The translations under genes were made by a program, and so were the position numbers. Shown here piece by piece: positions 1-37,649 of a stretch of 37,649 bases of DNA. Source of the stretch: a virus. Below the pieces are notes generated by a model that had not been told where the DNA came from, ran no database searches, and was given only the letters and a program-made list of their open reading frames with translations. Location: positions 1 through 37,649 of IMG/VR virus record IMGVR_UViG_3300046713_000166, one strand, 5' to 3'. How positions within the stretch are numbered: the first letter of the stretch is position 1; each line of letters starts with the position of its first letter.

Positions 1-1118
1 AGACGCTCATCGGATCCGTGGTCCCGACGACGGGACTTGATCCGTCATTCGGTGGCCAGAACGGCGCGAATGCCAGCACCGCGCGAGCCTACGCGCTCTG
101 TGAGGGAGCGGCGTACCTGCGTCAGGGTTCAGCGAACAACAAGATCCAGATCGCCCCTGGAACGCTGCTCCAGAAGATCGCGAACGCCGATGGTAGCGAC
201 TCGACGCTCGTGGCCTACAAGTTCGCGGGCTCCGAAGAGTGGACGCTCACCGCCGGTGACGGCACAAACCCTCGCGTGGATCTGCTGCAGATGGCGCTGA
301 GCTACACGACCGACACCCCGCTCAACGTCGACTTCCAGGATGCGATCACTCGGGCCAACACTACGGTGGCCGGCACCGCGACGAAGCGGCGGCTGCTGTG
401 CACGCTATCGGTCAAGCAGGGCACGCCAGGCGCCTCGCCAGTGGTGCCAGAGCCGGACGCGGGCGCCGTTGCCGTCGGATCGGTCCTCGTGGGGAACAGC
501 TGGGCCACGGGAGGCAACGCCCCGATCATGGGCATCGATACCACAGCGGTAAATAATGCCGTGGTGCACGATCAGCGGATTCCGCTCGGGGTTAGAACCT
601 ACGTTGCCGACCCGTCGACCTACAAGCTGGTCACCGCGTGGTCGACGAGCAATGCCGTGAGTACAGTGACATCGACGAACGCAACCAACGTTCTGATCAT
701 TCCCTGTCCGGTGACGATCGGGCGGCTCGTAGGCATCGGCATATCGCATGACGCCGGGTCGACGATGGCGTCGATGCTGCTCGGCCAGACCTCGGGGACG
801 AACCTCTCTGGCACGTTCGCATCGCGGATCTCGGTGCCCCAGCTGAGCTCCGGTGCCGACGCGGATGACATTCTGCCGTTCTGGGCCTTCGAGAACACGC
901 AGTCACCCGCCGCTGGGCCGACCGTGGTTCATTCGACGACGACCAAGGTGGGGGTGCCAATCTGGTGTAACGGGCGGCGAATGCCGTTCGAGAAGAACCG
1001 CATCAACCAGGCCATCCCAGCGGCCGTGCCGACCGATCGCCTGATGCTCAAGATCGCCAGCGGACAGAACGGCACGGTGATCGGCGCAGTGACGTTCTAC
1101 ATCGCCGAGGGGCTATAG
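1..1118 (+). CDS. Phage structural (tail/appendage) protein, 5' end cut by window
   Basis: The frame is open from the first bases of the window, so the gene probably starts upstream. A GTG at 18 has no ribosome binding site before it. The visible 366 residues are rich in Gly, Ala, Thr and Ser, with alternating beta-strand-like segments and no signal peptide, which fits a virion surface or tail protein. I do not recognise a family. It lies upstream of other tail-type genes at 3391-8023. Its TAG stop lies inside the palindrome CTATAG and overlaps the stop of the convergent lipoprotein gene by six bases. Structural role is inferred from composition and neighbours. Confidence 0.6.
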   Translation, partial: TLIGSVVPTTGLDPSFGGQNGANASTARAYALCEGAAYLRQGSANNKIQIAPGTLLQKIANADGSDSTLVAYKFAGSEEWTLTAGDGTNPRVDLLQMALSYTTDTPLNVDFQDAITRANTTVAGTATKRRLLCTLSVKQGTPGASPVVPEPDAGAVAVGSVLVGNSWATGGNAPIMGIDTTAVNNAVVHDQRIPLGVRTYVADPSTYKLVTAWSTSNAVSTVTSTNATNVLIIPCPVTIGRLVGIGISHDAGSTMASMLLGQTSGTNLSGTFASRISVPQLSSGADADDILPFWAFENTQSPAAGPTVVHSTTTKVGVPIWCNGRRMPFEKNRINQAIPAAVPTDRLMLKIASGQNGTVIGAVTFYIAEGL

Positions 1119-1463
1119 CCCGCAGGTTCCGCTCGTCTCGAGGTTGCCGGCGATCGTTTGCCCCTGCTTGACCGTCACGGCGCTATAGAGCACGGGCCGC
1201 CAACGCTCCGGCAAAACCTGCGCCACAGCGATCATGCTAACAGCAGCGGCGGCGAAGTACAGATCGACCGTGACCGGGCTTGGCGCGGTTCCCATGATCG
1301 GGTTCGCCTCGTACTGGCCGCGCCATGACCTGCGCGCGGCGGCGTGCGTCTGGCCCCAATCGCACGCGAGCGATGCCAACGCCAGCGTCGCGGTACCGTG
1401 GCGGACGTAGCCGTTAGCGCACCCCAGCATCGACACGGCAATCATGGCCAGCGCGGTCTTCAT
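1113..1463 (-). CDS. Small phage-encoded lipoprotein with E-x-NP-x-MG motif
   Basis: 116 residues. The N-terminus is a lipoprotein signal (hydrophobic residues 1-14, then MLGC with Cys15). The body carries CDWGQTH and EANPIMG, a D/T-helix plus E-x-NP-(I/L)-MG pattern that I associate with small membrane proteins of the DUF5658 type, followed by a second hydrophobic helix around residues 67-82. It probably sits in the host envelope; superinfection exclusion or lysis is possible but unproven. It has its own promoter and lies antisense to the tail genes, as a moron gene would. The start is the ATG at 1463, six bases after a -10 element. Confidence 0.65.
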   Translation of the reverse strand: MKTALAMIAVSMLGCANGYVRHGTATLALASLACDWGQTHAAARRSWRGQYEANPIMGTAPSPVTVDLYFAAAAVSMIAVAQVLPERWRPVLYSAVTVKQGQTIAGNLETSGTCGL

Positions 1464-1497
1464 ACCAGAACTATAAACCGCGTTAGCGCGATGTCAA
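1464..1497 (-). promoter_or_regulatory. Leaderless-type sigma70 promoter for the 1113-1463 gene
   Basis: On the minus strand TTGACA (1492-1497), a 16-base spacer and TATAGT (1470-1475) are followed by six bases (TCTGGT) and the ATG at 1463. Transcription should begin at or next to the start codon. The 18 bases GTTTATAGTTCTGGTATG recur with one mismatch before the gene at 25610. Confidence 0.7.
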
Positions 1498-1498
1498 G

Positions 1499-2308
1499 TC
1501 ATGGCGTCGGATGATCGTATGACGCGCTGAATGATCCGACGGTCAGCCCGCCAGCGTTGACGACCATTTTCAGCACGACGCGATCGGTCACGCCGAGCGC
1601 GATCGGGGATGGAATCGAGAACGGGACGCTGTTCAGTGCCAGCGGAACGTTGCTGAACGCGCCGTTGACGAGGTTCGTCGTGTTGTCCGACGCCGAGACC
1701 ACGTCCAGCGAAATGGTGGTGATGTCGACCAGTCCATCGCCGACGACAACGATCGCCCCATTCTTGAGACGGTCACCTGCCCGCATCGGCAGCGTCCAGA
1801 AAAGCACGGTCGGCCCGGTGGTCAGGATGTTGTCGGGCTGGTTGCGGATGATGCTGGCATTCGATGCCACGGCATTCGCCGCGCCTAGCAGTATGGTGCT
1901 CGTGGCGCTGCTCGCGATGTCAGTCCCCGTTGCGACCCCGCAGCCGGGTATGCCCAGGTCGCTCATCGAGCCATCGGTGTACACAGCTTCGATCGCGTAG
2001 CAGTACGACACGCCACCAGCGAGACCGGTTGCCGTCCACGTCGTCGGAGCGGGCGGCAGCGCGCTTGGCAGCAGCACGCTCGCGACGTCCACGAACGCGC
2101 CACCGGCCGTCGACTGAAACACGTAGAACTTCCAGGCCGAGGCGTCGGCAGTCCACGTGATCAGCTGCTGGCCGGCCGCCGGTTCCATCACGGCGACACC
2201 GCCAGGTCCAGCGACGGCCTGCTGCGCCGCCCGTTCGCCACCCCCTCCTAGGCACGCAGACACCCACGGAACTCCAATCAATGCAAGAAGTTTCAGCGAA
2301 GAGAACAT
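1499..2308 (-). CDS. Phage-encoded lipoprotein with fibronectin III-like domain
   Basis: 269 residues from ATG 2308, chosen because GGAG lies six bases upstream; a TTG at 2320 is in frame but worse. A lipoprotein signal (MFSSLKLLALIGVPWVSAC) ends in the lipobox VSAC, followed by a Gly stretch. Residues about 35-125 look like a fibronectin type III or Ig-like beta domain (ITWTADASAWKFYVFQS, then a SYCYAIEAVY strand). The C-terminal half is a second beta-rich domain (LFWTLPMRAGDRL). An exported, membrane-anchored protein encoded against the tail genes suggests a host-surface or virion-decoration role; no function is recognised. Confidence 0.6.
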   Translation of the reverse strand: MFSSLKLLALIGVPWVSACLGGGGERAAQQAVAGPGGVAVMEPAAGQQLITWTADASAWKFYVFQSTAGGAFVDVASVLLPSALPPAPTTWTATGLAGGVSYCYAIEAVYTDGSMSDLGIPGCGVATGTDIASSATSTILLGAANAVASNASIIRNQPDNILTTGPTVLFWTLPMRAGDRLKNGAIVVVGDGLVDITTISLDVVSASDNTTNLVNGAFSNVPLALNSVPFSIPSPIALGVTDRVVLKMVVNAGGLTVGSFSASYDHPTP

Positions 2309-2697
2309 GCAAATCTCCAATTCTTGGGCGGAAGCATCGCCCTGCCATATTCATGGCGCATGGTTTGCGCGTTTTGCAATATCCGTTTGCGAGTTTTACT
2401 TACGTGAGATTTTCCCCGCAGGGAAACGCACAGTTTGCGTCCGTGGAACAATTTGCGTGACCGGCGCCGCCAGGGGTCCCTCTCAGCGAAGTGGACGAAG
2501 CAACCAGGCCGCGCCGGTCGCTTGGCACGGTACCGCGAGATTCGGCTATTGCGTTGCGCCTACATACAAGAATTGCCTACGATTCTGCGGTGGAAGTCGA
2601 TTCGAGCCACCCTGCAGAATACTTACCGGCGGACCCCACACCCGAGGAACGGCTGCTTGTTCCGCATTGTGACCAGCATTCCGTACCCAAGGTAGCG
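2309..2697. promoter_or_regulatory. 389-base intergenic region with repeated TTTGCG
   Basis: This gap separates divergent genes (starts at 2308 minus and 2698 plus) and is less GC-rich around 2340-2460 than its surroundings. TTTGCG occurs at 2364, 2386, 2434 and 2452, with TTTGCA at 2373. Such direct repeats could be operator sites for a regulator of either gene. I find no convincing -35/-10 pair and no coding sequence. Confidence 0.35.
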
Positions 2698-5053: not shown

Positions 5054-8023
5054 GTGTCGCTCTTTCGTCCCCCACCGCTACCGCAGCAGCGGCGACCTGG
5101 CTCGCTCAGCGGGGTCCCGGCCGCTGCGGGCGACGGCGCGTTCACCGGCTCTGGCGACATAGCTGGCGCCGGGGTCGGCGGGGTCGCGGGCGCCGGAACG
5201 TTCGCAGGATCTGTAGCGTTCGCCGCCACGAGCGCCGGGCAGGGCGTCGGCGTCCTCACCGGCTCCGGCGCACTCGCCGGCGGTGGCGCATCGCTGGCGG
5301 GCGGCGCGGGCGCGCTCGTTGGCGTCGGTGCGCTCGCTGGGGTCTCGAACAACTCCTTCCCGGTCAGCATCTCGGCGAACGGGCGCTACCTGGTGCACCC
5401 CGATGGCACGCCATTCCTGCTCTGCGCCGACACCACGTGGTCGCTGTTCGAGGACATCCCGCTTGCCAGCCTGAACACGTATTTCTCCACGCTTATCTCG
5501 CAGGGCTTCAACGCGGTCTCCAGCAACGCGATGGAGCACCACTACACCCTGGTCAAGCCGCCCAAGGAGCGCGGCGGGCTGCTGCCGTTCACGCAGAAGA
5601 TGGACGGGACCACGTTCACCGGCTCGCCGAATGGCACGACAGGGGCGGCCGGCACGCAGGGCCAGTTTGCGAGCGACAATTACTCGAACATCAACAATCA
5701 GGCGCCGGACTGCACGTTCATCAATAACAGCTACTGGACCACGGTCGAAACGATCCTGAACGCGGCGCTGGCCAGCGGTCTGATCGTGCTGATCTGGCCC
5801 GGCTACCTCGGGTTCCACCGGAACGACGAGGGCTGGCTCAACGAGATGGTCGTGTGGGACGCGGTGACCGGCGCTGGCGGGTTCACCGGGCAGTCGTTCG
5901 CGAATCCCGCCAAGTCGAAGATGTGGAACTACGGCGCATGGATGGCGGCGAGGTGGAAGAACTACCCGAACCTCATCTGGGTCATGGGCGGCGACTACGG
6001 CTCGAACACGCAGACGCTCAGCACCGCCGAATCGGCGGCCGTGAGCAACTTGATGGCCGGCCTCAAGTCGGTGGCCGGTCAGGCGTCGCTGCTGTTCACC
6101 GCGCACTGGGATCGCCCGGCGCTGTCGACGGATACGGTGCTCGCCGCTGGGTCGTTCGACCTGAACGGGTGCTACGCCGACGAGTCGGTGGCCGAGCTGG
6201 CGCGCCGCGGGTTCGCGGCCTCTCCGACGAAGCCCGTGATCGGCCTGGAATACTTCTATGAGCTCGACCTGTTCGGCGGCTCGGCACCGTTCCGCAAGTA
6301 TCCCTACTGGCAGTTCCTCGGCGGCGTCGCGGGCGGGTTCTACGGCCACGAGCAGCTCTGGAGATTTGACACGGGATCGCCAGGGACGGACTGGACGACG
6401 CTGCTTGCGACGCAGGGCCGGCTCGATGCGGCCCGGCAGTTCGCGCTGTGGAAGACGCTGCCGTGGCACCGGCTGAAGCCCTCGGGACTCGGCGGCATGA
6501 TCTCGCTGATCACAGCCGGCGGGGGCACCGCGAGTCCGCAGAGCACGACGTACGTCGCGGCGGCGGCGACCTCCGAGGGCGACCTCCTACTCGCGTACAT
6601 CCCGCCGGACCACACGGGGACGATCACCGTGGCCATGACCGCGATGGCGGCCTCGGCGCGCGCGCGGTGGTTCGACCCGACGAATAGCTCCTTCACGGCG
6701 ATCGGCGTGATCGCCAACACGGGCACGCACGTGTTCACAACGCCGGCCACGAACAACGCCGGGGACACGGACTTCCTGCTCGTGCTGGACACGCCGGCCG
6801 GCGCCTTCACGGGGTCCGGGGACATGTCGGGGCACGGTGCCGCGCTCGGCTCGGGGTCCAGCGGTCTCACGGGGGCCGGCGCGATCGCCGGCGGCGGCGC
6901 CGCGCTGATCGCGGCTGCTGGCGCGGCGACTGGATCGGGGACGCTCGCCGGCGTGGGTGCTGCTGCGGTGCAGGGCGCCGGCGCGCTCTCCGGGTCAGGG
7001 GCCATAGCCGGCACCGGCGCAGAGCTCGCAACCGGGATCGGCGCGCTCGCCGGGACCGGCGCGCTCGCTGCGGTCAGCACCTCAAGCGCGGCTGGCGCGG
7101 CATCCCTTGCGGGCACCGGCACGCTGGCCGCGGTCGGTAGCGGCTCGGCGGCCGGATCGGGGACGCTCTCGGCCAGCGGCACCATCGCGGCGACCGGCGC
7201 CTCCCCGGCGCCGACCGTGGGTGCGTTCACCGGATCGGGCGCGATCGCCGCGGCCGGCAGTGCCGGATCTGCGGGCACGGGCACCGGAAGCCTGGCCGGA
7301 TCGGGCGCGATCGCCGGCGCTGGCGCGCAGCTCACCGCGGGTGCGGGCGCGGCGGCAGGCGCGGGCAGTCTCGCCGGTGCCGGCGCTCAGATCGTCGCTA
7401 CGGTCGGCGCCATGACCGGCTCCGGCGCGTTCTCGGGCGCGAGCGCAGCGCTCAACTCGGGGGCCGGCGTGGGCGCGCTCAGCGGTGGCGGAGCGATCGC
7501 CGGCGCAGGCACGGCGCGGGCGGCCGGAGCATCAGCGATCGCGGCGACGGGCACGATCTCCGGGCATGCCGTAGGCATCACGATCGGCCCGGTGTCCGGC
7601 TCGCTTACCTGGAGCCCGCTCTTTGGTCGACTGCAGGACGGAGGCCCGAACATGATCGAGCTCTCAGGACCGCTCACCGTGTACCGCGGCGACGATGTGG
7701 ACTATGTGCTCGTCGTCACCGACGACACTGATACCCCGATCGACCTGACCTCGGTTGCCGCGCTCGAGGTCCAGGTGAAGACCGCGATCGGCGCCGCCGA
7801 CCCGCCGACGCTCTCCAAGTCCATCGCAGCCGGAACCGTTGTGCTGCTCGACCAGACCGCGCCGGCCACCAAGGGCCGCGCGTCGTTCGGGTTCACGTCG
7901 GCCGAGACGAACATCACCCCCGGGCTCTACTGGCTCGACATCGTGCTCGTGCTCGCCGGCAAGCGGACCCACGTGATCACCCCGCGCGCGTTCACGATCA
8001 CCGACGTGGTGAACCCGCCATGA
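5054..8023 (+). CDS. Tailspike: Gly/Ala repeats, GH140-like glycosidase, Ig-like C-terminus
   Basis: 989 residues from GTG 5054. Domains: a Gly/Ala/Ser repeat (about 27-98); a DUF4038/apiosidase-like (GH140) TIM-barrel domain (about 103-475) opening with NGRYLVHPDGTPFLLCADTTW; a small beta domain (about 490-580) resembling the collagen-binding-like C-terminus of GH140 proteins; a very long Gly/Ala repeat (about 584-840); and a C-terminal domain (about 867-989) that resembles the N-terminal Ig-like domain of baseplate protein BppU (VYRGDDVDYVLVV; PGLYWLDIVLV). Predicted acid/base and nucleophile positions are D314 in VMGGDYG and E399 in IGLEYFYE, by family analogy. It probably degrades a surface polysaccharide during adsorption; the substrate is unknown. 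Confidence 0.75.
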   Translation: MSLFRPPPLPQQRRPGSLSGVPAAAGDGAFTGSGDIAGAGVGGVAGAGTFAGSVAFAATSAGQGVGVLTGSGALAGGGASLAGGAGALVGVGALAGVSNNSFPVSISANGRYLVHPDGTPFLLCADTTWSLFEDIPLASLNTYFSTLISQGFNAVSSNAMEHHYTLVKPPKERGGLLPFTQKMDGTTFTGSPNGTTGAAGTQGQFASDNYSNINNQAPDCTFINNSYWTTVETILNAALASGLIVLIWPGYLGFHRNDEGWLNEMVVWDAVTGAGGFTGQSFANPAKSKMWNYGAWMAARWKNYPNLIWVMGGDYGSNTQTLSTAESAAVSNLMAGLKSVAGQASLLFTAHWDRPALSTDTVLAAGSFDLNGCYADESVAELARRGFAASPTKPVIGLEYFYELDLFGGSAPFRKYPYWQFLGGVAGGFYGHEQLWRFDTGSPGTDWTTLLATQGRLDAARQFALWKTLPWHRLKPSGLGGMISLITAGGGTASPQSTTYVAAAATSEGDLLLAYIPPDHTGTITVAMTAMAASARARWFDPTNSSFTAIGVIANTGTHVFTTPATNNAGDTDFLLVLDTPAGAFTGSGDMSGHGAALGSGSSGLTGAGAIAGGGAALIAAAGAATGSGTLAGVGAAAVQGAGALSGSGAIAGTGAELATGIGALAGTGALAAVSTSSAAGAASLAGTGTLAAVGSGSAAGSGTLSASGTIAATGASPAPTVGAFTGSGAIAAAGSAGSAGTGTGSLAGSGAIAGAGAQLTAGAGAAAGAGSLAGAGAQIVATVGAMTGSGAFSGASAALNSGAGVGALSGGGAIAGAGTARAAGASAIAATGTISGHAVGITIGPVSGSLTWSPLFGRLQDGGPNMIELSGPLTVYRGDDVDYVLVVTDDTDTPIDLTSVAALEVQVKTAIGAADPPTLSKSIAAGTVVLLDQTAPATKGRASFGFTSAETNITPGLYWLDIVLVLAGKRTHVITPRAFTITDVVNPP
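5132..5347 (+). repeat. N-terminal Gly/Ala-rich coding repeat
   Basis: This encodes about residues 27-98 of the tailspike as imperfect copies of a Gly-Ser/Ala-Gly-x-(L/I/F)-Ala-Gly unit (TGSGDIAG, AGAGTFAG, TGSGALAG). It looks like a short copy of the large repeat further on and may act as a flexible or collagen-like stalk segment. Confidence 0.7.
6803..7575 (+). repeat. Long Gly/Ala coding repeat of the tailspike
   Basis: About 250 residues made of imperfect eight-to-twelve-residue units such as TGSGAIAG, GAGALSG and AGAGSLAG, with Gly at nearly every second or third position. The DNA repeats are imperfect and in frame, so copy number could change by recombination without breaking the frame. 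It separates the enzymatic domain from the C-terminal domain. Confidence 0.75.
7640..7654 (+). promoter_or_regulatory. Strong internal ribosome binding site inside the tailspike gene
   Basis: GGAGG (7640-7644) lies seven bases before an in-frame ATG at 7652, exactly where the C-terminal Ig-like domain begins. Translation from here would give a separate 123-residue protein containing only that domain. Confidence 0.45.
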
Positions 8024-8302: not shown

Positions 8303-8962
8303 ATGGCAGACATCAGCGTACCTGTACAGGTTCAAGTAGCACCTCCACCGACCACCCCCAAGCCCGGGTACAAGACGACCGAGTGGTGGGGGCATCTCGC
8401 CGCAATGGCGCTCACGCTCATCTTCGCGAGCGGCATCCTGACGAACGCCACGGAGATCCAGATCGCCGGCATCGCGGCGGCATGGCTCGGCTCGTTCGGC
8501 TACCAGGTCACCCGGAGCTGGGTGAAGACCTCCGCCGTGCTGCTGCTCGTGGGCGCGCTCGGGACCGCGCAGACCGCCTGCACGAGCGCCGAGCGCAGCG
8601 CCGTCGCGACCAGCGCGGGCCACGCGGCGATCAACTGCACCGCCACGGCGATCGGGACCACGCCAGGGCTCGACCTCGCAACCCTCGCCGCGGTCGTCAA
8701 CCTGACCGCCGCGGAGCGGTCGAAGTGCATGACGGCGGCCGGGCTCGACTGGAAGTGCGTCGAGGCCGACGCGATCGGCCAGGGCGTGACTCTCGGCGGG
8801 TGCGCGCTGGTCCAGCTGGTTGCCGCTGCGGCCAAGGCGATCCAGCCCTCGACGTCCGGCCTGGCCGCCAACCCAGCGCCGCCACCGGGCCGGGTCGAGC
8901 TCGAGGACTTCCGCGCCAAGATGGGCGGCGCGAGCTGGCACACGGCGGCGGGTGACCAGTGA
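8303..8962 (+). CDS. Holin-like membrane protein with Cys-rich C-terminal domain
   Basis: 219 residues, with AAGGAG six bases before ATG 8303. The N-terminus (KPGYKTTEWWGHLAAMALT) matches a common phage holin-like family. Hydrophobic helices are at about 30-47, 52-68 and 75-92. The third ends in QTAC, a poor lipobox, and is followed by a soluble domain with paired Cys residues (INCTAT, KCM, KCVEAD, GGCALV). A membrane role in lysis is likely; the tail domain is unusual for a holin. TAAACT at 8272-8277 may be its -10. The next start overlaps its stop (GTGA). Confidence 0.6.
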   Translation: MADISVPVQVQVAPPPTTPKPGYKTTEWWGHLAAMALTLIFASGILTNATEIQIAGIAAAWLGSFGYQVTRSWVKTSAVLLLVGALGTAQTACTSAERSAVATSAGHAAINCTATAIGTTPGLDLATLAAVVNLTAAERSKCMTAAGLDWKCVEADAIGQGVTLGGCALVQLVAAAAKAIQPSTSGLAANPAPPPGRVELEDFRAKMGGASWHTAAGDQ

Positions 8963-9132
8963 AGCGCAAGACCGGCAAGCTCCCGCTCCGACGCGAGGAG
9001 CTCCGCCGCGTCGAGCCGGCCCAGGTCAACGGCGGCATCACGACGTACACCACGACGGCCGATGAGGCATGCTCGGGGCCGTGCTGCGGCAAGGTGACCG
9101 TGAGCTACTGCGCGGGCAAGAACGGCGCGTAG
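8959..9132 (+). CDS. Putative RiPP precursor peptide (class I lanthipeptide-like)
   Basis: 57 residues from GTG 8959, coupled to the holin-like gene by a GTGA overlap. The leader (1-26) is basic and holds KLPLRREELRRV and ends QVNGG, matching the K-L-x-L-x-(K/R)-E-x-(L/I) plus double-Gly pattern of class I lanthipeptide precursors from Myxococcota and Bacteroidota. The 31-residue core contains Thr 28, 29, 31, 32, 33 and 47, Ser 39 and 49, and Cys 38, 42, 43 and 51 (ACSGPCCGK; SYCAG), the residues needed for thioether rings. No dehydratase or cyclase is in the window, so any modification must come from elsewhere. It could instead be an unmodified Cys-rich peptide. Confidence 0.6.
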   Translation: MKRKTGKLPLRREELRRVEPAQVNGGITTYTTTADEACSGPCCGKVTVSYCAGKNGA

Positions 9133-9975: not shown

Positions 9976-10154
9976 TTTGGCGCTCCGTGTCCTCGGCACA
10001 GCAGAATTGGCGCCTCGCAAATCCCGCATCGTGTCTCGACCCCAGCGGCAATGCCTGCGAGGATGGTCTCGTCAGTTGCGTGGACCTCCAGCAAGACGCC
10101 GCTGGGAGCGCGAAACAACACCAACCGAACCTTCGGCATTCCCGGGACGGTCAT
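9972..10154 (-). CDS. Small zinc-finger-like protein
   Basis: 60 residues from ATG 10154, with AGGAGGAG just upstream. The C-terminus holds CGICEAPILLCRGH, a C-x2-C-x6-C-x2-H arrangement that could bind zinc. The 60-residue protein at 36656-36838 has the same RCxIC-AxI-C-x2-HG arrangement, so the two may be related. Overlapping starts and stops tie it to both neighbours. Confidence 0.6.
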   Translation of the reverse strand: MTVPGMPKVRLVLFRAPSGVLLEVHATDETILAGIAAGVETRCGICEAPILLCRGHGAPK

Positions 10155-10609
10155 TTCTCCTCCTGGTGCTCCGGGATCTTGAACCCGATGTCATTCTGGT
10201 GCCACGACGCCATGCAGCGCTGGCATCCGATGCGCTCGTCGACCGGCTCAGTGATGCCGGCCCCGGAGCCGCCGCATCGCCCATCGGCAGGGAGCCCCGT
10301 CTCGGCATCGGTGATCGAGATCTCCAGGTCCGCGAGCGATGGCCGTTCCCCGGTCTCCGCGCAGCGCCTGAGCACCGCGCGGACCCCGTCGATCTGCATC
10401 CTCAGCTGGCGCCGGAACCCCTCCTTGGCGCGCGGGCTCAGCCGCTCGAAGAACGCCCGCAGGTCACGGTAGCCCTTGGTCTGGGTCAGCCGGACGCGCG
10501 GGGAGCCGGCGAGCGCCACGGGGTCGATCGAGAGCGCGCCGTGGTCCTCGGTGATCCGCGCCTGCAGCGTGGCGAACTCGAGCAGAAGCTTGGCATCGGC
10601 GAAGTTCAT
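10151..10609 (-). CDS. Unknown phage protein with C-terminal CxxC
   Basis: 152 residues from ATG 10609, overlapping its upstream neighbour by ATGA. The first 100 residues are helical (FADAKLLLEFATLQARI; LRAFFERLSPRAKEGFRRQL). The C-terminal third has single Cys residues and CQRC near the end, possibly a metal site. Not recognised. Third gene of the operon. Confidence 0.6.
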   Translation of the reverse strand: MNFADAKLLLEFATLQARITEDHGALSIDPVALAGSPRVRLTQTKGYRDLRAFFERLSPRAKEGFRRQLRMQIDGVRAVLRRCAETGERPSLADLEISITDAETGLPADGRCGGSGAGITEPVDERIGCQRCMASWHQNDIGFKIPEHQEEK

Positions 10610-14746: not shown

Positions 14747-15612
14747 ACGATCAGAACCTCACCGACACCGCCGCCGCCATCGAGGCCGGCATCGCATGCA
14801 CCGTCGCCAACAACCGATGGACGCTGGTGGAGCATCCCGAGGATAGCAGCATCGCGATCCCGATCTGTGTCAACGACGGCATGGTGTCCATGATGGACGG
14901 CGTGCTCGCCGAGATCGACAAGCGCTGGCGCGACCGGCCGCGCGCCGGCGCGACCACGCTGACCGAGGTCGACAGCTTCATCGCCCACCTGGTGCGCTGG
15001 GGCAGCGAGAGCACCGTGGTCTACGCCAACACCGCCGCGATGTCGTTCGAGGCCGTGCTCGACGATCACCCGCCGGACGAACACACCACCGCCGCTCGCC
15101 AGCACCGCGCGAGCTACACGTGCCCGCGGTCGGCCGAGTGGCTGGCGTGGACCCAGCTCGATGGCAAGCCGATGGGCCAGGTCGCATTCGCCGACCTCAT
15201 CGAGAGCCGGCTCGAGGACATGGTCGACGGCTCCAAGGTGACGCCGCCGGTGGAAGGCTTCCCGCGGCCGCTCGACGTCCTGCAGGTCGCCCGGTCGCTG
15301 AACATCCTCACCAAGGGGACGTTCCAGCGCGAGGTCAACCCCACCAACGGAGATTCGATCTTCGTCTGCAAGACGGAGACGGACGCCAAGTCGACGCAGA
15401 TCCCGCGCGCGTTCATGCTCGGAATTCCTGTGTTCGATGGTGGCAAGAGGTATCCGATCGAGTCGCGCGTTCGGTTCGCGCTCATCGAGGGACGGCCGTC
15501 GTTCTCGTTCACGCTGCACCGGCGCGCCGAAGTCGAGCGCGACGCGTTCGGCGAGGTCCGCGCGAAGGTCGCGAAGGACACCGGCCGGCTCGTGCTCGCA
15601 GGCACCCCGTGA
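14743..15612 (+). CDS. DUF2303 (YfdQ-like) phage protein
   Basis: 289 residues. The DUF2303 pattern is clear: FADLIESRLEDMV (mid-protein), then TQIPRAFMLGIPVFDGG, YPIESRVRFAL and FSFTLHRRAEVERDAF. These proteins are common in the early regions of temperate and lytic phages near recombination genes, and their biochemical role is not known. Normal length, no signal. Coupled to both neighbours by GTGA overlaps. Confidence 0.85.
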   Translation: MNDQNLTDTAAAIEAGIACTVANNRWTLVEHPEDSSIAIPICVNDGMVSMMDGVLAEIDKRWRDRPRAGATTLTEVDSFIAHLVRWGSESTVVYANTAAMSFEAVLDDHPPDEHTTAARQHRASYTCPRSAEWLAWTQLDGKPMGQVAFADLIESRLEDMVDGSKVTPPVEGFPRPLDVLQVARSLNILTKGTFQREVNPTNGDSIFVCKTETDAKSTQIPRAFMLGIPVFDGGKRYPIESRVRFALIEGRPSFSFTLHRRAEVERDAFGEVRAKVAKDTGRLVLAGTP

Positions 15613-17044: not shown

Positions 17045-18198
17045 CGCTCACGCCCGACCAGCTGGCCCTGCGCCTGCGCGGGATCACCGCCACCGACTGC
17101 GCGGCCATCGCCGGCGTCCACCCCGAGCGCTCGCCGATAGACGTCTGGCGCGAGAAGCGCGGCGAGGCGCCCCCATTCGACGGCAACAAGCGCACGAAGT
17201 GGGGCAACCTGCTGGAGCCCGTCGTCCGCACCGACTACGAGGAGCGCACCGGCCTTCGCATCGAGGTCCCTGGCACGCTCGAGCACCCCGACTCGCCGTG
17301 GATGCTCGCCACCCCGGACGGTGTCGGATATCTGGACGCCGAGCCCGTGCGCGGCCTGGAGATCAAGTGCCACACCGTGCGGCTCGCCCACCTCTACGGG
17401 GCGCCCGGGTCCGACGAGGTCCCGGCGTACGTCCTCGTGCAGTGCGTCTGGTGCATGGCGGTCACCGGGCTGGTGCGGTGGGACGTGGTCGCCTTCATCG
17501 ACGGCCAGCCGAACGACTACATCATCGATCGCGACGACGAGCTGATCGGCATCCTGCGTGACCGCTCGGAGCGGTTCCTGATCGACAACGTGCGCGGCGG
17601 CGCCGTGCCCGATCCCGACGGATCGGAGAGCTTCGATGCGTGGCTCAAGGCGAGGCACGAGAAGAACACGGACGCGCTCATCGAGCTCCAGGCCGATGCG
17701 GACCGTGAGCTGCTGGTGCTGATCGACCGCGCCAAGGAACTGCGCGAGCAGGGCGCCGACGTGGAGCGCGAGCTGGTGCAAATCGGTCAGCGGTTCAAGC
17801 TGCGGATCGCCGGAGATGCCGGGTTGACCTGGAACAACGCCAAGGGGAAGCCCGAGAAACTGACGTGGAAGCGCAACAAGGCGTCGCGCAAGATCGACTA
17901 CACCGGCATCGCGAACGACGCGCGGACCGATGCGCGGATGGCGCTCTCCGCCAAGCGCGCCGACATCGAGCGGGCCAAGATCTGCCTGCAGGTCATGGGC
18001 GAGCGCACGCCGGTCGGTCCGAACTCGCGCGCGGCGATGACTGCCGGCGAGATCCGTGAGCTCGTTTCTGTGCTACAAACGTCGCTCGAAGAGGTCGCGT
18101 CGCGGACGGACGCGGCGTACACCCACGAAATTCCCGGCAAGCGTCCGCTTTGTTACCCACGAACATGGAAAGCCCCGAAGGGCGAGGAGCAGGAATGA
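17041..18198 (+). CDS. YqaJ-like recombination exonuclease
   Basis: 385 residues from ATG 17041. It should resect double-stranded ends 5' to 3' in the manner of lambda exonuclease, making single strands for annealing. Motifs: ITATDCAAIAG (15-25), WGNLLEP with E59, TPDG with D93, and LEIK (106-109) as the E-x-K element. These form the YqaJ/PD-(D/E)XK active site. The C-terminal half is helical, charged and of unknown role. It is translationally coupled to the candidate annealing protein. Confidence 0.85.
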   Translation: MTLTPDQLALRLRGITATDCAAIAGVHPERSPIDVWREKRGEAPPFDGNKRTKWGNLLEPVVRTDYEERTGLRIEVPGTLEHPDSPWMLATPDGVGYLDAEPVRGLEIKCHTVRLAHLYGAPGSDEVPAYVLVQCVWCMAVTGLVRWDVVAFIDGQPNDYIIDRDDELIGILRDRSERFLIDNVRGGAVPDPDGSESFDAWLKARHEKNTDALIELQADADRELLVLIDRAKELREQGADVERELVQIGQRFKLRIAGDAGLTWNNAKGKPEKLTWKRNKASRKIDYTGIANDARTDARMALSAKRADIERAKICLQVMGERTPVGPNSRAAMTAGEIRELVSVLQTSLEEVASRTDAAYTHEIPGKRPLCYPRTWKAPKGEEQE

Positions 18199-19520
18199 CC
18201 GACGAGGAACAGGACTATACCGACGAGCCGGCCGGCGCGCTCACCACGCAGCGCGGCAACAACCAGATCGCCCGCCAGGACTTCCAGGGCGGCAGCCTCG
18301 CCACGCAGAACGGGGCGATCGAGGCGATGGTCGCCAAGTCCCGCGCCGAGGTCGAGGCGGCGTGCATCATGGCGAAGAGATGGCCGCGCAACCCGGACCA
18401 GGTCCGCCAGGATCTGATCGCCGAGTGCAAGCGGCCCGGGTTCGCCGCGGTGGCGATCTACAGCCTGCCGCGCGGCGACAAGAAGATCGAGGGCCTCTCG
18501 ATCCGGTTCGCCGAGGTCGCCATGCGGTGCTCAGGCAACATGTCCGCGTCCAGCGAGACCATCTACGACGACCCGGCCGTGCGCTGCATCCGCGTCAAGG
18601 TGGTGGACTACGAGCGGAACAGCATGTGGCAGACCGACATCACCATCAACAAGACCGTCGAGCGCCGGCAGCTCAAGCGCGGGCAGAAGCCGCTCGGCGA
18701 GCGCATCAACTCGTACGGTGACCGCGTGTTCATCGTCGAGGCCACCGACGACGACGTGCGCACCAAGCAGAACGCCGAGATCAGCAAGGCGAGCCGCACC
18801 GGAATCCTGCGGATCATCCCCGGCCACCTGCAGGACGAAGCCCGGCGGCTGTGCAAGGACGTGGCGAGCAAGGCGGACGCGGCGGACCCGGCGGCGGCGC
18901 GCAACAAGCTGTTCGACGCGTTCGGCTCGATCGGCGTGAAACCGGCGGCGCTGGAGCAGTGGCTCGGGCACAGCACCGACACGATCAGCCCGGCCGAGCT
19001 CGACGACCTGCGCGGGCTGTTCGCGGCGATCCGCGACGGCGAGACCACGTGGGCCGACGCGCTCAAGGAGGTTGCGGCGGAAGGCGAGGTCAAGCCCGCC
19101 GCGAAGCCCGCGACCAACGGGGGTGCTCCGCCGGCGCCCGTAGCAACCCCGCAGGGGCCGCCGCCTGGCGTCCCGCAGACGCATGCCGAGGCGATCGCGC
19201 GCAAGATCGAGCTGGATGCGCAGACCCCCGGCAGGCCGCCCACCCCGCCAGCGGACCTGACGCGAACCGGGCCGCGCACCAGTTCGGGCAAGGGCACCGC
19301 CGCGCTCAAGGGCGCCCTCACCAGCAAGTCGGCGCCCGCCGCCCCGCCGCCCGTGCAGCAGGCCATGCCGATGGCGGACCTGCCGCCCGGCACCCCGCCG
19401 CCGTCGGAGGGCAACGAGTACCGCACCTGCGCGGGCTGCAGCGACACGATCGAGGTCCCGAAGTCGGACATGGCTGGCGCGCTTTGCGATTCCTGCTCGT
19501 CCGCCGGCCGCGGCGAGTAG
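18195..19520 (+). CDS. Candidate single-strand annealing protein with C-terminal zinc ribbon
   Basis: 441 residues from ATG 18195 (ATGA overlap with the exonuclease). Residues about 30-250 form a conserved phage domain with MAKRWPRNPDQV, LSIRFAEVAMRCSGN and GILRIIPGHLQDEA, which I have seen next to exonucleases where RecT would be expected. A Pro/Ala-rich linker follows (about 300-410), and the end has CAGC and CDSC, a zinc ribbon. The position and coupling argue for strand annealing; it shows no RecT, Erf or Sak motif that I can identify, so the function is inferred. Confidence 0.55.
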   Translation: MTDEEQDYTDEPAGALTTQRGNNQIARQDFQGGSLATQNGAIEAMVAKSRAEVEAACIMAKRWPRNPDQVRQDLIAECKRPGFAAVAIYSLPRGDKKIEGLSIRFAEVAMRCSGNMSASSETIYDDPAVRCIRVKVVDYERNSMWQTDITINKTVERRQLKRGQKPLGERINSYGDRVFIVEATDDDVRTKQNAEISKASRTGILRIIPGHLQDEARRLCKDVASKADAADPAAARNKLFDAFGSIGVKPAALEQWLGHSTDTISPAELDDLRGLFAAIRDGETTWADALKEVAAEGEVKPAAKPATNGGAPPAPVATPQGPPPGVPQTHAEAIARKIELDAQTPGRPPTPPADLTRTGPRTSSGKGTAALKGALTSKSAPAAPPPVQQAMPMADLPPGTPPPSEGNEYRTCAGCSDTIEVPKSDMAGALCDSCSSAGRGE

Positions 19521-21556: not shown

Positions 21557-21709
21557 CTATCCGGGCGGCTTGCAGCCGCAACCCGTGCAGCTGTCGCACG
21601 ACAACACCGGGTTCGAGACCGCCAGGCCACCGGCGGCAGCGAGGTCGAGCGCGGTGAGGAAGCGGATGGATTCGCGGTTGAGGCGGAGACGTGTGGGTTG
21701 GCGCTTCAT
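21557..21709 (-). CDS. Putative RiPP precursor peptide 2 (class I lanthipeptide-like)
   Basis: 50 residues from ATG 21709, antisense between plus-strand genes, with -10 TACCGT six bases upstream. The leader holds RLRLNRESIRFL, very close to the L-x-L-(N/K)-(K/R)-E-(T/S)-(L/I) leader motif of class I lanthipeptides, and ends LAAAGG. The core (about 28-50) contains Ser 32, 36 and 39, Thr 41 and Cys 37, 40, 43 and 45 (SCDSCTGCGCKPPG). It shares M-K-R, the L-x-L-x-R-E core and a double Gly with the peptide at 8959. No maturation enzyme is present. A Cys-rich metal-binding peptide is the main alternative. Confidence 0.6.
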   Translation of the reverse strand: MKRQPTRLRLNRESIRFLTALDLAAAGGLAVSNPVLSCDSCTGCGCKPPG

Positions 21710-21715
21710 AGTCCC

Positions 21716-21739
21716 ACGGTAGCACGAGCGCCCTTGACA
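21716..21739. promoter_or_regulatory. Divergent promoter elements between RiPP 2 and the RHH gene
   Basis: Minus strand: CGTGC-TACCGT, with the -10 at 21716-21721, six bases before ATG 21709. Plus strand: TTGACA at 21734-21739, 31 bases before ATG 21771; its -10 (perhaps CACTGT, 21757-21762) is weak. Confidence 0.45.
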
Positions 21740-21770: not shown

Positions 21771-22004
21771 ATGGCCAAGCGCGTAGGACGAAGACGGCGG
21801 AACCTCAAGCCCCGGATGAGGCTCGACGCTCCCTCGCTGGAATGCACGGTCCCTGTGTCCACCGCGCTGCCGGGCACCATGGTGAACGCGATCGACGCTG
21901 CCGCGGAGACGCTGGGCGAGATCAGCCGGTCGGAGTTCATCCGGCGCGCGGTAGAGGAACGGCTCGCAAGGATTGACGCGGCGAGCGCCAGCAAGGCGGC
22001 CTGA
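21771..22004 (+). CDS. Ribbon-helix-helix DNA-binding protein
   Basis: 77 residues from ATG 21771. A basic arm (KRVGRRRRNLKPRMR) is followed by a CopG/Arc-type fold: a beta strand around VPVSTALPG, helix A NAIDAAAETLG and helix B SRSEFIRRAVEERL. Such dimers repress promoters through the N-terminal strand. It precedes the replication initiator by one base, so it may regulate replication or its own divergent promoter region. Confidence 0.7.
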   Translation: MAKRVGRRRRNLKPRMRLDAPSLECTVPVSTALPGTMVNAIDAAAETLGEISRSEFIRRAVEERLARIDAASASKAA

Positions 22005-32987: not shown

Positions 32988-34550
32988 GTGGTCGCCTTCG
33001 GGACCGCAGAGGAGGCGCGGCTCACCGCTCTCCTGCGCGCGGACCACGGCGAGTCGTTCCGGGACTTCGTGGCGCGCGTCTCGCCGCACCACAGCATCAA
33101 GCGCCACCTCGAGCCGGTCGCGGACCTGTGGGAGCGCACGCGGTACGAGCGGGTGTTCGCGTGCGTGATGCAGCCGCCGCAGACCGGCAAGAGCACCACG
33201 GGGCTGCATGGCCTGGCCTGGCGGATGGCGCGCGACCCGGTGCTGTCGCACGGGTACGCGACGTACAACGACCAGCTGGCCGCGTCGAAGTCTCGCATCT
33301 GCCGGCGGATGGCCACCGGGGGCGGCGTGGAGATCCCGCGCGGTTCTGCGGCGGTGCACGAGTGGCAGACGGATCGCGGCGGGGGGCTGCTGGCGCACGG
33401 CTATAAGGGCCAGTGGTCGGGCATGCCGATCAATGGCGTGGCGCTCCTCGACGACCTGTACAAGGACCGCAAGGACGCCGAGAGCAAGGTGATCCGCGAG
33501 AACGTGTGGGAGTTCTTCACAGACGTCCTGTGGCCGCGCCTTCACCCGCCGAGCAAGCGCAACATGGGCGCCTCGGTGATCGCGCAGTTCACGCGCTGGC
33601 ACGCCGACGATCTGATCGGGCGTTTACTGCAGGGCAAGTACAAGGGGTACCAGTTCGAGGAGGTCCGCCTCCCCGCGATCTGCGAGGACGAAGACGACAT
33701 CCTGGGGCGTCAGATCGGAGAGGCGCTGTGGCCCGAGCAGATGCCAATCGAGGAGCTCCGACGCATCGAGGAGAGCTCGGGACCGTACAGCTTCGCATCG
33801 CTCTACCAGCAGCGACCGCGACCGAAGGGCGCCGACATCTTCGGCGAGCCGGCCACGTTCTCGCTGGCCGACTGGCGCCCCGACGAGCATCGGATCATCA
33901 TCTGCTGCGACCCCGCTGCGACCGACGACAACCGCGCCGACTTCAGCGCCGCGTTCGTCCTCGCCGCGAAGGGATTCGGCCTCGACATGAAGGTCTGGAT
34001 CCTCCACGGCTGGCGCGACCACATCACGGTACCGGCCGTCGCGCGCAAGCTGTACGAGATCCAGCAGCGGCACTGGGGCGACCGCTACCCGGTGCCGATC
34101 GCCGTCGAGTCGGTCGGCGGGTTCAAGGCGGTCCCGCAGATCCTGAAGGAGATCGAGCCCCGGCTCCGCATCCGCCCCATCAAGCCGAAGGGCGACAAGT
34201 TCACCAGGGCGCAGGGCTTCGCGTCGGCCTGGAACGCGGGCCGGGTGCTCGTGCCGATCGATTCGGACCTGTGGTGGGACAGCAAGGCGGCGTGGCCCGA
34301 CGGGCGCCAGGGCCGGTTCCTGCTGCCGGCGAACGAGGTCACCGGAGAGCGATTCGCGCGCAAGCTCCGCGCCGGCGTTCAGGCCGGCATCACCTGGGCC
34401 GACGAGCTGCTGTGGGAGGCGGACAAGTTCACCGGCGTGGGTGATCTGGAGGACGACCAGATCGACGCGCTCGCACACGGGTACAATGAACTCTGGGAAG
34501 TCAAGCAATCTCAGAGAGGTACATCTCCATCAAAGGCCCCATTTGGCTAG
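32988..34550 (+). CDS. terL: Terminase large subunit
   Basis: 520 residues from GTG 32988. It translocates DNA into the prohead and cuts it. The ATPase domain has a variant Walker A PQTGKST (64-70), Walker B VALLDD (151-156) and the coupling motif QFTRWHADDLIGRLL (200-214). The nuclease domain has CCDPAATDD (D308), VESVGG (about 370) and DLEDDQIDALAHGYNEL near the C-terminus. Normal length. Its last 21 bases overlap the convergent HNH gene, and the final residues may have been altered by that insertion. Confidence 0.9.
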   Translation: MVAFGTAEEARLTALLRADHGESFRDFVARVSPHHSIKRHLEPVADLWERTRYERVFACVMQPPQTGKSTTGLHGLAWRMARDPVLSHGYATYNDQLAASKSRICRRMATGGGVEIPRGSAAVHEWQTDRGGGLLAHGYKGQWSGMPINGVALLDDLYKDRKDAESKVIRENVWEFFTDVLWPRLHPPSKRNMGASVIAQFTRWHADDLIGRLLQGKYKGYQFEEVRLPAICEDEDDILGRQIGEALWPEQMPIEELRRIEESSGPYSFASLYQQRPRPKGADIFGEPATFSLADWRPDEHRIIICCDPAATDDNRADFSAAFVLAAKGFGLDMKVWILHGWRDHITVPAVARKLYEIQQRHWGDRYPVPIAVESVGGFKAVPQILKEIEPRLRIRPIKPKGDKFTRAQGFASAWNAGRVLVPIDSDLWWDSKAAWPDGRQGRFLLPANEVTGERFARKLRAGVQAGITWADELLWEADKFTGVGDLEDDQIDALAHGYNELWEVKQSQRGTSPSKAPFG

Positions 34551-35051
34551 ACGGCGGTCTGCTGGTCTCGATCTGCTGAGGCCGAGGATGATTGACCTAA
34601 CGTTGGTGGCGCACGTCTTGAACCTATTGGCCAGTGACTTTCGGCTCTCACCGTTCTTCGCTCTGCGGCGAAGATCTGCGACCTGGGCATCACTGAGCTT
34701 GGCCATTCCGCTCAACTCTCCGTTACGCACGAAATTCCGCTTCTTGCGGAGCATGTCCTGGGTGTTCTGCTGGGGCGTTCCAAGAAAAAGATGGTCGATC
34801 CTCACGCAGGCAGGGTTGTCGCATTTGTGCAGCACGAACATCCCGTCCGGGATGAGCCCGTGGGTCTGCTCGAAAATCCAGCGATGCGCCAAGCATGTTG
34901 CCTTGGGCCGGCTGGTTCTGTGAGCAAAAATCCCGTACAGGGTTCCCCCTTTACCGAGCCTGGTACCCTGCCAGATGTGACACGTTTCTGTCTTCAAGAC
35001 CTTGGAATTAAAGCGTTCCATCGGGTCGCGCTTGGTGTAGATCCTTGGCAT
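34530..35051 (-). CDS. Free-standing HNH homing endonuclease
   Basis: 173 residues from ATG 35051; upstream in-frame starts exist and no clear ribosome binding site decides. HNH_3 motif: CHIWQGTR, LAHRWIFE, then VLHKCDNPACVRIDHLFLGT and a QDM tail. A C-terminal HTH (KLSDAQVADLRRRAKNGES) probably gives site specificity. Base composition is clearly AT-richer than the neighbours, and the gene is opposite in strand, so it looks like a recent invader beside terL. No intron is visible. Confidence 0.8.
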   Translation of the reverse strand: MPRIYTKRDPMERFNSKVLKTETCHIWQGTRLGKGGTLYGIFAHRTSRPKATCLAHRWIFEQTHGLIPDGMFVLHKCDNPACVRIDHLFLGTPQQNTQDMLRKKRNFVRNGELSGMAKLSDAQVADLRRRAKNGESRKSLANRFKTCATNVRSIILGLSRSRPADRRLAKWGL

Positions 35052-35112
35052 GACATGATGGTAACATGTCTTGCTGACATTGTACCAGGGTAACCGTTCG
35101 GACGATTGCCCC

Positions 35113-35145
35113 TTGCGCGAGCACAGTAGCGGTGCTATAAACAGA
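35113..35145 (+). promoter_or_regulatory. Leaderless-type promoter, repeat of that at 19534
   Basis: TTGCGC (35113-35118), 17 bases, TGC-TATAAA with TATAAA at 35136-35141, seven bases (CAGAACC), ATG 35149 followed directly by ATG 35152. Bases 35125-35145 equal 19545-19565. Confidence 0.65.
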
Positions 35146-35148
35146 ACC

Positions 35149-35441
35149 ATGATGACGACGATGCAGACCCAGACCGACCCATTCGCCGCCCTGACGGCTC
35201 ACATCGAGATCCTCAAGCTCACCCTTCAGGCGGCGTTCGGCGCCCCTGTGGTGCGCGACTACGCGGCCGGCGCGGTCGTGTGGATGTGGACCACTACAAC
35301 ACCGCGGTGGTCACCGGACCCGGGACCGAGGCCGACCATTGGGCCATCACCACGACGGACGCGGACGGGTCGGTGAACGAGTACGAGTACATGTCCGCCC
35401 ACCTGCGGCCCGCTGTGGCGCCAGTGGAGTTCCGCTGGTGA
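35149..35441 (+). pseudogene. Phage gene with an apparent frameshift
   Basis: From ATG 35149 the frame encodes a sensible helical start (FAALTAHIEILKLTLQAAFG) but becomes Arg/Pro-rich nonsense after about 35275 and ends at 35376. From about 35277 another frame continues sensibly (VDHYNTAVVTGPG; ADHWAITTTDADGSVNEYEY) to TGA 35441, which overlaps the next start as GTGA. Re-reading one base would join the halves. It may be a mutation, a sequence error or a programmed -1 shift; no slippery heptamer is obvious. A separate gene from GTG 35280 is the alternative. Confidence 0.55.
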
Positions 35442-36330: not shown

Positions 36331-36669
36331 ATGACCATCACTAAGAATGCCATTCTTCAGAAACTTCTCCGCAGCGCCATCAAGAACCGACTCGAATGCG
36401 AGTACATGGAGAAGGGCGCCTCTCCCTCGAAGCGTCGCTACTACGAGGGACGCACCGCAGCGCTCATCTAGTGCCTGACTGATGATGCCAGCGAGGTACT
36501 CGCCAAGTCGACCAAGCGATACACCACCGAGCATCACGTTCCCGGAGACGACATCACGTATCCTGAAGGCACCGTCGTGGAGTGGATGCGCGGATGCATC
36601 CAGGCTGCGCAGGACGTCGTCCGCGGCGACGGAGAGCAGACATTCGGCTCCCCGATCATCCTGACGTAG
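36331..36669 (+). pseudogene. Gene interrupted by an in-frame amber codon
   Basis: ATG 36331 has AAGG eight bases upstream. The first part (46 residues: KNAILQKLLRSAIKNRLECEY; SPSKRRYYEGRTAALI) ends at TAG 36469-36471. The same frame then continues 65 residues (CLTDDASEVLAKSTKRYTTE; EWMRGCIQAAQDVVRGDGEQ) to TAG 36669. Codon use is slightly AT-richer than the neighbours. A nonsense mutation is the simplest reading; suppression by a host tRNA or readthrough is possible. No homologue recognised. The convergent zinc-finger gene overlaps its end by 14 bases. Confidence 0.6.
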
Positions 36670-36877: not shown

Positions 36878-37649
36878 ATGGCTTCCATCCCCGGCTCCAT
36901 GATCGGCGTCCAGCTCGACAGCCTCCCCGGCGGCCCGGCGCTCGCCGCGGCCACCGCGCTGAACATGCGGCTGCGGTCCGACGCGCCGGCCGGGGGCACC
37001 GCAACCGCGCAGCTCAACCTCGCGTCCGACGCGCTCTCGCTGACCTGGGGGGACCTGTGCCAGCGCCACCCCGAGTGGCTGGGCGACTACTGGGCGGAGT
37101 GCCGAGCGCTGTATGCCGGCGGTCAGCGCCTGCTTGCGGACCCGGCGCTGATGAAGCGCCTGTTCCCGCAGAACCTGTACGAGGACGCGCAGGTCTACGA
37201 GCAGCGCAAGCGCCGCGCCCATTACTACCCGTACCCGGGGACGATCATCGACCACCTGCTGGCCGGGCTCGGGACTGACCCGCTCAAGGTCTCGTTCACG
37301 CTGCTCGACGCCGACGACGGCAAGGCCAAGGAGCCCGATGCGAAAGCGAAGTGGTGGCAGGAGTGGGTGTCCGACGTCACCGACGAGGCCGAGCGCCCAG
37401 CTGACTACGGGCTCGAAGACACCAACGACGAAGACGAGGACGACGAGGGCGGCCGGTCGATCCACCGCTTCTGCGTCGACACGTTGCGCGAGGCGCTGCA
37501 GACCCGCACGGCGTGGGTGCTCGCCGACCTGCCGCGCGCCGGCGAAGAGGAGCCGGGCGAGGGCCTGGACCCGTATCTTCGCCTGATCCCCGCGGAGCAG
37601 GTGGTGGACTGGCAGTACGACGACGAGGGCCGGCTGACCTGGGCGATGG
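36878..37649 (+). CDS. Portal protein, N-terminal part (runs past the window)
   Basis: 257 residues visible. The portal forms the ring through which DNA enters the capsid. RHPEWLGDYWAECRALYAGG (about 63-82), LFPQNLYEDAQVYEQRKRRA and TIIDHLLAGLG follow the DUF4055-type portal pattern. An acidic stretch (DTNDEDEDDEGG) lies before CVDTLREALQTRTAWVLAD. It is the first gene of the head module and should continue for some 200 residues beyond 37649. Confidence 0.75.
   Translation, partial: MASIPGSMIGVQLDSLPGGPALAAATALNMRLRSDAPAGGTATAQLNLASDALSLTWGDLCQRHPEWLGDYWAECRALYAGGQRLLADPALMKRLFPQNLYEDAQVYEQRKRRAHYYPYPGTIIDHLLAGLGTDPLKVSFTLLDADDGKAKEPDAKAKWWQEWVSDVTDEAERPADYGLEDTNDEDEDDEGGRSIHRFCVDTLREALQTRTAWVLADLPRAGEEEPGEGLDPYLRLIPAEQVVDWQYDDEGRLTWAM

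Follow-up and report, generated by a model that had tools for sequence, protein, structure and literature searches.

Candidate orphan precursors of ribosomally synthesized, modified peptides in a phage lineage

A viral DNA stretch of 37,649 nucleotides (IMG/VR record IMGVR_UViG_3300046713_000166, positions 1 to 37,649, referred to here as the window) carries on its plus strand, at 8959–9132, a gene of 57 codons designated P1. Its product, VKRKTGKLPLRREELRRVEPAQVNGGITTYTTTADEACSGPCCGKVTVSYCAGKNGA, is read as a phage-borne orphan precursor of a ribosomally synthesized and post-translationally modified peptide (RiPP). P1 would be one of a small set of such precursors, P1 to P4, that would be modified in trans by enzymes of the host, and the probability of this reading is put at about 0.55. 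The window is a 37.6-kb fragment of an uncultured ~64-kb phage with a GC content of ~68%. It represents ~58% of the length of that phage, and two related IMG/VR phages, G1 (64.8 kb) and G2 (63.6 kb), cover the remainder of the genome. P4 comes from a fourth phage, G7, which is a 53-kb contig (IMGVR_UViG_3300046694_000329).

P1 and further genes of the same design

P1 starts with a GTG codon in the sequence GTGA, which overlaps the stop codon of the gene at 8303–8962, and an in-frame stop just upstream of the GTG leaves no other start available. In a genome of ~68% GC, the GC values at its three codon positions (0.59/0.57/0.95) make P1 clearly coding. Residues 1–26 form the putative leader, which ends in NGG, while residues 27–57 form a putative core rich in Cys, Thr, and Ser. 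All Cys residues (38, 42, 43, and 51) lie behind G25-G26, as do the Ser/Thr residues at 28, 29, 31, 32, 33, 39, 47, and 49; the sole exception is T5. The open reading frame (ORF), its GTGA overlap with the upstream gene, and the Cys- and Ser/Thr-bearing core behind a double Gly are therefore as an earlier note on this DNA had described them, with one Thr ahead of the Gly pair.

Orthologues of P1 in G1 and G2 are 96% and 89% identical to it, without insertions or deletions. The corresponding ratios of nonsynonymous to synonymous substitution (dN/dS) are 0.34 and 0.41, similar to those of neighboring genes. Conservation of the Cys and Thr positions in related phages had been set in advance as a test, and none of the four Cys or eight core Ser/Thr residues is replaced in any of the three sequences. 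P1 is thus confirmed as a real gene that is conserved among three phages. No relatives were found beyond G1 and G2: tblastn searches of isolate phages and plasmids gave nothing convincing, and a peptide-alignment scan of genome contigs gave no match.

The design of P1 recurs in the same phages. For the purpose of counting, an ORF was required to have the motif LxLx[RK]Ex[LIV], followed 5–15 residues on by [GA][GA] and at least two Cys in a tail of 8–60 residues, with a start codon nearby. Matches number two in the window, three in G1, two in G2, and one in G7, and all of them are P1 to P4. By genome, the set comprises P1 and P2 in the window, P1 to P3 in G1, P1 and P3 in G2, and P4 in G7. In order-3 Markov simulations, no match arose in 150 versions of the window, and the mean number was 0 for the window, 0.013 for G2, and 0.007 for G7; the same definition found no match in 676 kb of other viral loci. 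An ORF combining leader, double Gly, and Cys in this manner is therefore beyond chance expectation. Since the definition postdates the sighting of P1, the independent evidence consists of P2 and P3 rather than P1. Likewise, P4 was located with a pattern drawn from P1, so that the similarity between the two is biased and neither serves as an independent test.

Cys is absent from all four leaders. P2 (21557–21709, minus strand; MKRQPTRLRLNRESIRFLTALDLAAAGGLAVSNPVLSCDSCTGCGCKPPG) was picked up with a generic leader expression and can be written as MKRQPTRLRLNRESIRFLTALDLAAAGG + LAVSNPVLSCDSCTGCGCKPPG; an orthologue exists in G1, and none at the same place in G2. Its 5′ part, MKRQPTRLRLNRESIR (21661–21709, minus strand), is ~49 nucleotides of DNA that, like the DNA upstream of it, are identical to G1. 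Beyond this part, the alignment switches abruptly to clearly diverged DNA, and the end of the protein, SCDSCTGCGCKPPG, is kept between the window and G1. The switch has the look of a recombination junction that falls within the leader. P3 lies outside the window, at 36402–36593 of G1 (locus L019, 16402–16593, plus strand) and 18636–18827 of G2 (locus L022, minus strand), where it is divergent from a phage tRNA-Met gene. The G2 version (MKQTNKRVLKLSRESVRVLSSRQLTRAGGGFIPDPTTAATDGNNGCPSEATGCHTGLSGCGSC) came from a list of small Cys-rich genes made blind to leaders, and the G1 version was recovered by the generic leader expression. Between G1 and G2, the P3 gene has 11 synonymous codon changes and three amino acid replacements, all in the leader, and the 33-residue core is identical. 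P4 (G7, locus L086, 1834–2040, minus strand) is unlinked to the others, and no second copy was found in viral contigs.

On the basis of these alignments, the precursor cores appear constrained, as the P3 core is identical amid synonymous changes and the P2 end SCDSCTGCGCKPPG is kept. The genes themselves appear to behave as accessory, exchangeable units, given the P2 junction and the lack of P2 in G2. The similar strings GCTACCGT, GCTACGGT, and GTAACGGT occur a few bases 5′ of the ATG in P2 (window ~21717–21724, minus strand), P3, and P4, respectively, and are perhaps a promoter or start-site element. Divergent from P2 is a small gene (21771–22004, plus strand, its end coordinate inferred from G2) that is similar to a 77-residue G2 protein, and whose product we take, by eye, to be ribbon-helix-helix-like.

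Pattern scans elsewhere produced candidates that were set aside. A scan of genome contigs for KLxLxREELR followed by GG returned four loci, all encoding unrelated proteins such as SmpB (KLLLHREELRK). In viral contigs, a pattern scan returned 86 stretches that were mostly due to chance, and one accidental pass, L059, resembles an M15-type peptidase. Viral contigs gave no match to a low-GC, Lys-type leader pattern.

Leader families, modification enzymes, and competing readings

In a number of Bacteroidetes, the precursors (LanA) of class I lanthipeptides have the motif LxLxKx5L in place of FxLD; many of their leaders end in GG, and a C39 protease is often encoded in the cluster (PMC7268733, Walker et al. 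2020). With Arg in place of Lys, this motif is fitted by P2 (LRLNRESIRFL), P3 (LKLSRESVRVL), and P4 (LILDRETLRSL). P1 (LPLRREELRRV) has the Arg too but also requires that Val be accepted in place of the last Leu, and its distance to the double Gly is then three residues shorter. The strict Lys form has no match in any of the phages. Among profile hidden Markov models (HMMs), the class I leader family NF038153 (lant_leader_L1a, cutoff 22 bits) gives P4 16.6 bits as a whole and 19.9 bits for the leader alone, and it has no match to P1, P2, or P3. The sole family match of P3 is a weak one to TIGR04149, a family of radical-SAM targets (16.8 bits, cutoff 25).

Several results weigh against reading P1 as a RiPP precursor. 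The search of its 57 residues against RiPP and class I lanthipeptide models, which the earlier note had proposed, came out negative: neither P1 nor its orthologues match NCBIfam RiPP or leader models even at E=10, in a search whose positive controls worked. The short leader might account for a missed match, yet P1 with three neutral residues inserted is still unmatched, so that HMMs provide no case for P1. The scores of P3 and P4 all lie below their cutoffs. Conservation of P1 is seen in three closely related sequences only, and the counting definition was written after P1 had been seen, with G7 located by a P1-like pattern. When the published motif was loosened and a single Cys sufficed, chance matches did arise: three across the 676 kb, and as many as two extra per phage record. 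Finally, no modification enzymes of the class I pathway were found in the phage records, as detailed below. Two further matches were discarded. A spacer-bearing form of P1 reached 21 bits owing to L1a-like residues placed in the spacer, and the sole match of P1 across NCBIfam, Pfam, and PHROGs, to RNase HII, is due to chance.

The phage records were searched for LanB (PF04738, PF14028) and LanC (PF05147), again as the earlier note had proposed, without a match; the controls for PF14028, and those for PF04738 in one scan, were silent, which makes these absences less secure. Radical SAM enzymes (PF04055) were not found in the four phage records, with 14 of 14 controls detected, nor was peptidase C39, whose controls scored above cutoff. 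A Pfam scan of the large phage proteins likewise revealed no such enzyme domain. Since no modifying enzyme was found in the phages, the host would have to supply the modification, and the infected cell must finish the peptides if they are finished at all. The strict label of class I lanthipeptide is unproven. What stands of the class I lanthipeptide-like reading in the earlier note is the arrangement of leader, double Gly, and core and the conservation of Cys and Ser/Thr, to which the further such genes add support; the exact class is unproven, given that P1 has no HMM match and that no LanB/LanC was found in the phages.

Alternatively, P1 could be nothing more than a small phage protein rich in Cys, one that binds metal, forms disulfide bonds, or serves as an accessory of the lysis or tail operon, and its likeness to a leader would then be coincidental. 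The missing HMM match and short leader agree with this, as do the similar string in SmpB and the several other small Cys-rich proteins of these phages. It is nevertheless unlikely, since P2 and P3 share the design of P1 in the same phages beyond chance. In addition, AlphaFold predicts no confident fold for P1 (predicted local distance difference test score, pLDDT, of 54; weak evidence, from three sequences), and a search of the PDB gave only non-significant matches. A different departure keeps the genes as RiPP precursors and assigns them to another class, in which a radical-SAM enzyme of the host, or another host enzyme that modifies Cys, would act on the Cys-rich peptides. The cores are dense in Cys, and TIGR04149 is the best family of P3. 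A synthetic L1a control likewise scored against TIGR04149, which makes it difficult to distinguish one leader type from the other. On the other side, the P4 leader prefers NF038153, and many Ser/Thr residues lie ahead of Cys in P1 and P3, so that this alternative is considered somewhat less probable again. With TIGR04149 as the best match of P3, the modification may be lanthionine formation or some other chemistry on Cys.

The phage leaders might also be decoys, which occupy the lanthipeptide enzymes of the host and blunt an antiphage lanthipeptide, with cores of minor importance. Lanthipeptides of Streptomyces have been reported to inhibit phage transcription, particularly that of late genes (PMC12360287). 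The supply of substrates without enzymes would suit such a role, as would P2, for which two phages have the same upstream DNA and the same beginning of the leader, with the rest exchanged. However, a pure decoy would not need constrained cores, and constraint is what is observed: the P3 core is unchanged despite synonymous changes, P1 has lost no Cys or core Ser/Thr, and P2 keeps its end. Moreover, we know of no such antiphage lanthipeptide system in the host, and the decoy explanation is considered improbable, the most so of the three.

If P1 is indeed an orphan RiPP precursor, residues 1–26 would act as an LxLx(K/R)x5(L/V)...GG leader and residues 27–57 as the core. P1 would be made with the late operon of tail and holin-like genes through translational coupling, whereas P2, beside a small regulator-like gene, and P3, beside tRNA-Met, would be separate units. 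Host machinery, most likely LanB/LanC, would bind the leader and dehydrate Ser/Thr, after which thioether rings could close on the conserved Cys residues. A C39-type protease/exporter of the host might then free the core at the double Gly, and the targets of the resulting bioactive peptide would be competing cells or the host itself. A broader proposal, held tentatively and at somewhat less than even odds, is that this lineage of environmental phages keeps a small exchangeable set of orphan precursors, which host enzymes turn into new peptides in the course of infection. The leader would stay the same and its core be replaceable, as at the P2 junction. If so, phages would diversify the peptide chemistry of their hosts, or turn it on rivals or on host defense.

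Genomic setting and phage lineage

The gene that overlaps P1 (8303–8962, plus strand) encodes a membrane-type protein of 219 amino acids with a Cys-containing C-terminal half. Its designation as holin-like in the earlier note is weakly supported: the protein has a few hydrophobic stretches, and residues 21–78 show a 34% match to a 96-residue protein of another phage (L007), but a family search gave no convincing match. The 219-residue protein has a long Cys-containing extension, while the 96-residue counterpart is followed by a small secreted-type ORF, so that the gene may be a fusion. Further upstream and in the same direction, as part of this putative late operon, is a tail-type gene of 989 codons (5054–8023, plus strand) with apiosidase-like and collagen-binding-like domains.

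The ends of G1 overlap once they are mapped on the window (15295–15419), as expected of a circular or permuted genome. The gene content of the phage includes a terminase, portal, YqaJ/RecE-like exonuclease, RusA, DNA methyltransferase, and GH25-type endolysin. A search for tyrosine integrases, with serine recombinases outside its scope, found none. G7 is otherwise different, and the proteins it has in common with the window, G1, and G2 are few and distant. The closest isolate phages are only ~30% identical in terminase or capsid, so that relatives give no indication of the host.

Lipoprotein-like genes and an HNH endonuclease gene lie on the minus strand of the window (1113–2320 and 34530–35150). 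They are 99–100% identical between phages that diverge by ~10% elsewhere, which indicates recent transfer and mobile units. Cys-rich lipoprotein genes are also present in G1 (17510–17899, locus L018) and G2 (10081–10425 and 37286–37627), some with clear promoters of the TTGACA/TATAAA type. Strings such as STQAL and SNQSL follow their lipobox, a style that we associate, as a lead only, with Myxococcota. The host is perhaps Myxococcota-like. Relatives of a Sulfuritalea metagenome-assembled genome gave no L1a match.

Relation to known systems

Phages with RiPP precursors had been called hardly described, which is too strong: according to PMC7616364 (citing Dragos et al. 2021), up to 3% of prophages contain biosynthetic clusters, most of them for bacteriocins. 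Orphan precursors without enzymes are less described, and literature searches, with subscription journals mostly outside their scope, found no account of phages with several of them. Should modification of the peptides take place in infected cells, the phage would feed substrates to the secondary-metabolite enzymes of its host, a new kind of phage-host metabolic interaction. Such genes would also supply RiPP cores that escape genome mining based on clusters, since no enzymes adjoin the precursors. Whether host RiPP enzymes accept phage precursors, and what the products do, are the questions raised, and the answers would bear on the spread of GG-leader genes with different cores.

The closest likeness is to the class I LxLxKx5L...GG precursors (PMC7268733) and NF038153, with which P1 to P4 share the leader motif once it is relaxed to LxLx(K/R)x5(L/V), a GG-type end, and Cys confined to a Ser/Thr-bearing core. 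They differ in having Arg for Lys (and, in P1, a Val end and a leader shorter by three residues), in being encoded by phages, and in having no LanB, LanC, or C39 gene nearby. The likeness to TIGR04149 (GG_sam_targ_CFB) is a weak one that concerns the P3 leader and falls below the cutoff, and the search of the phages yielded no radical SAM gene. The prophage bacteriocin clusters (PMC7616364) are likewise weapon-type peptide genes carried by a phage; in contrast, the present phages have precursors alone, without modification enzymes, and no tyrosine integrase was found. The prochlorosins, mentioned in PMC7268733, are many precursors encoded far from their enzyme, and they similarly rely on an enzyme encoded elsewhere. 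Their leaders are of the Nif11 type and their setting is a cyanobacterial chromosome, whereas the enzyme for the phage peptides would sit in the genome of the host.
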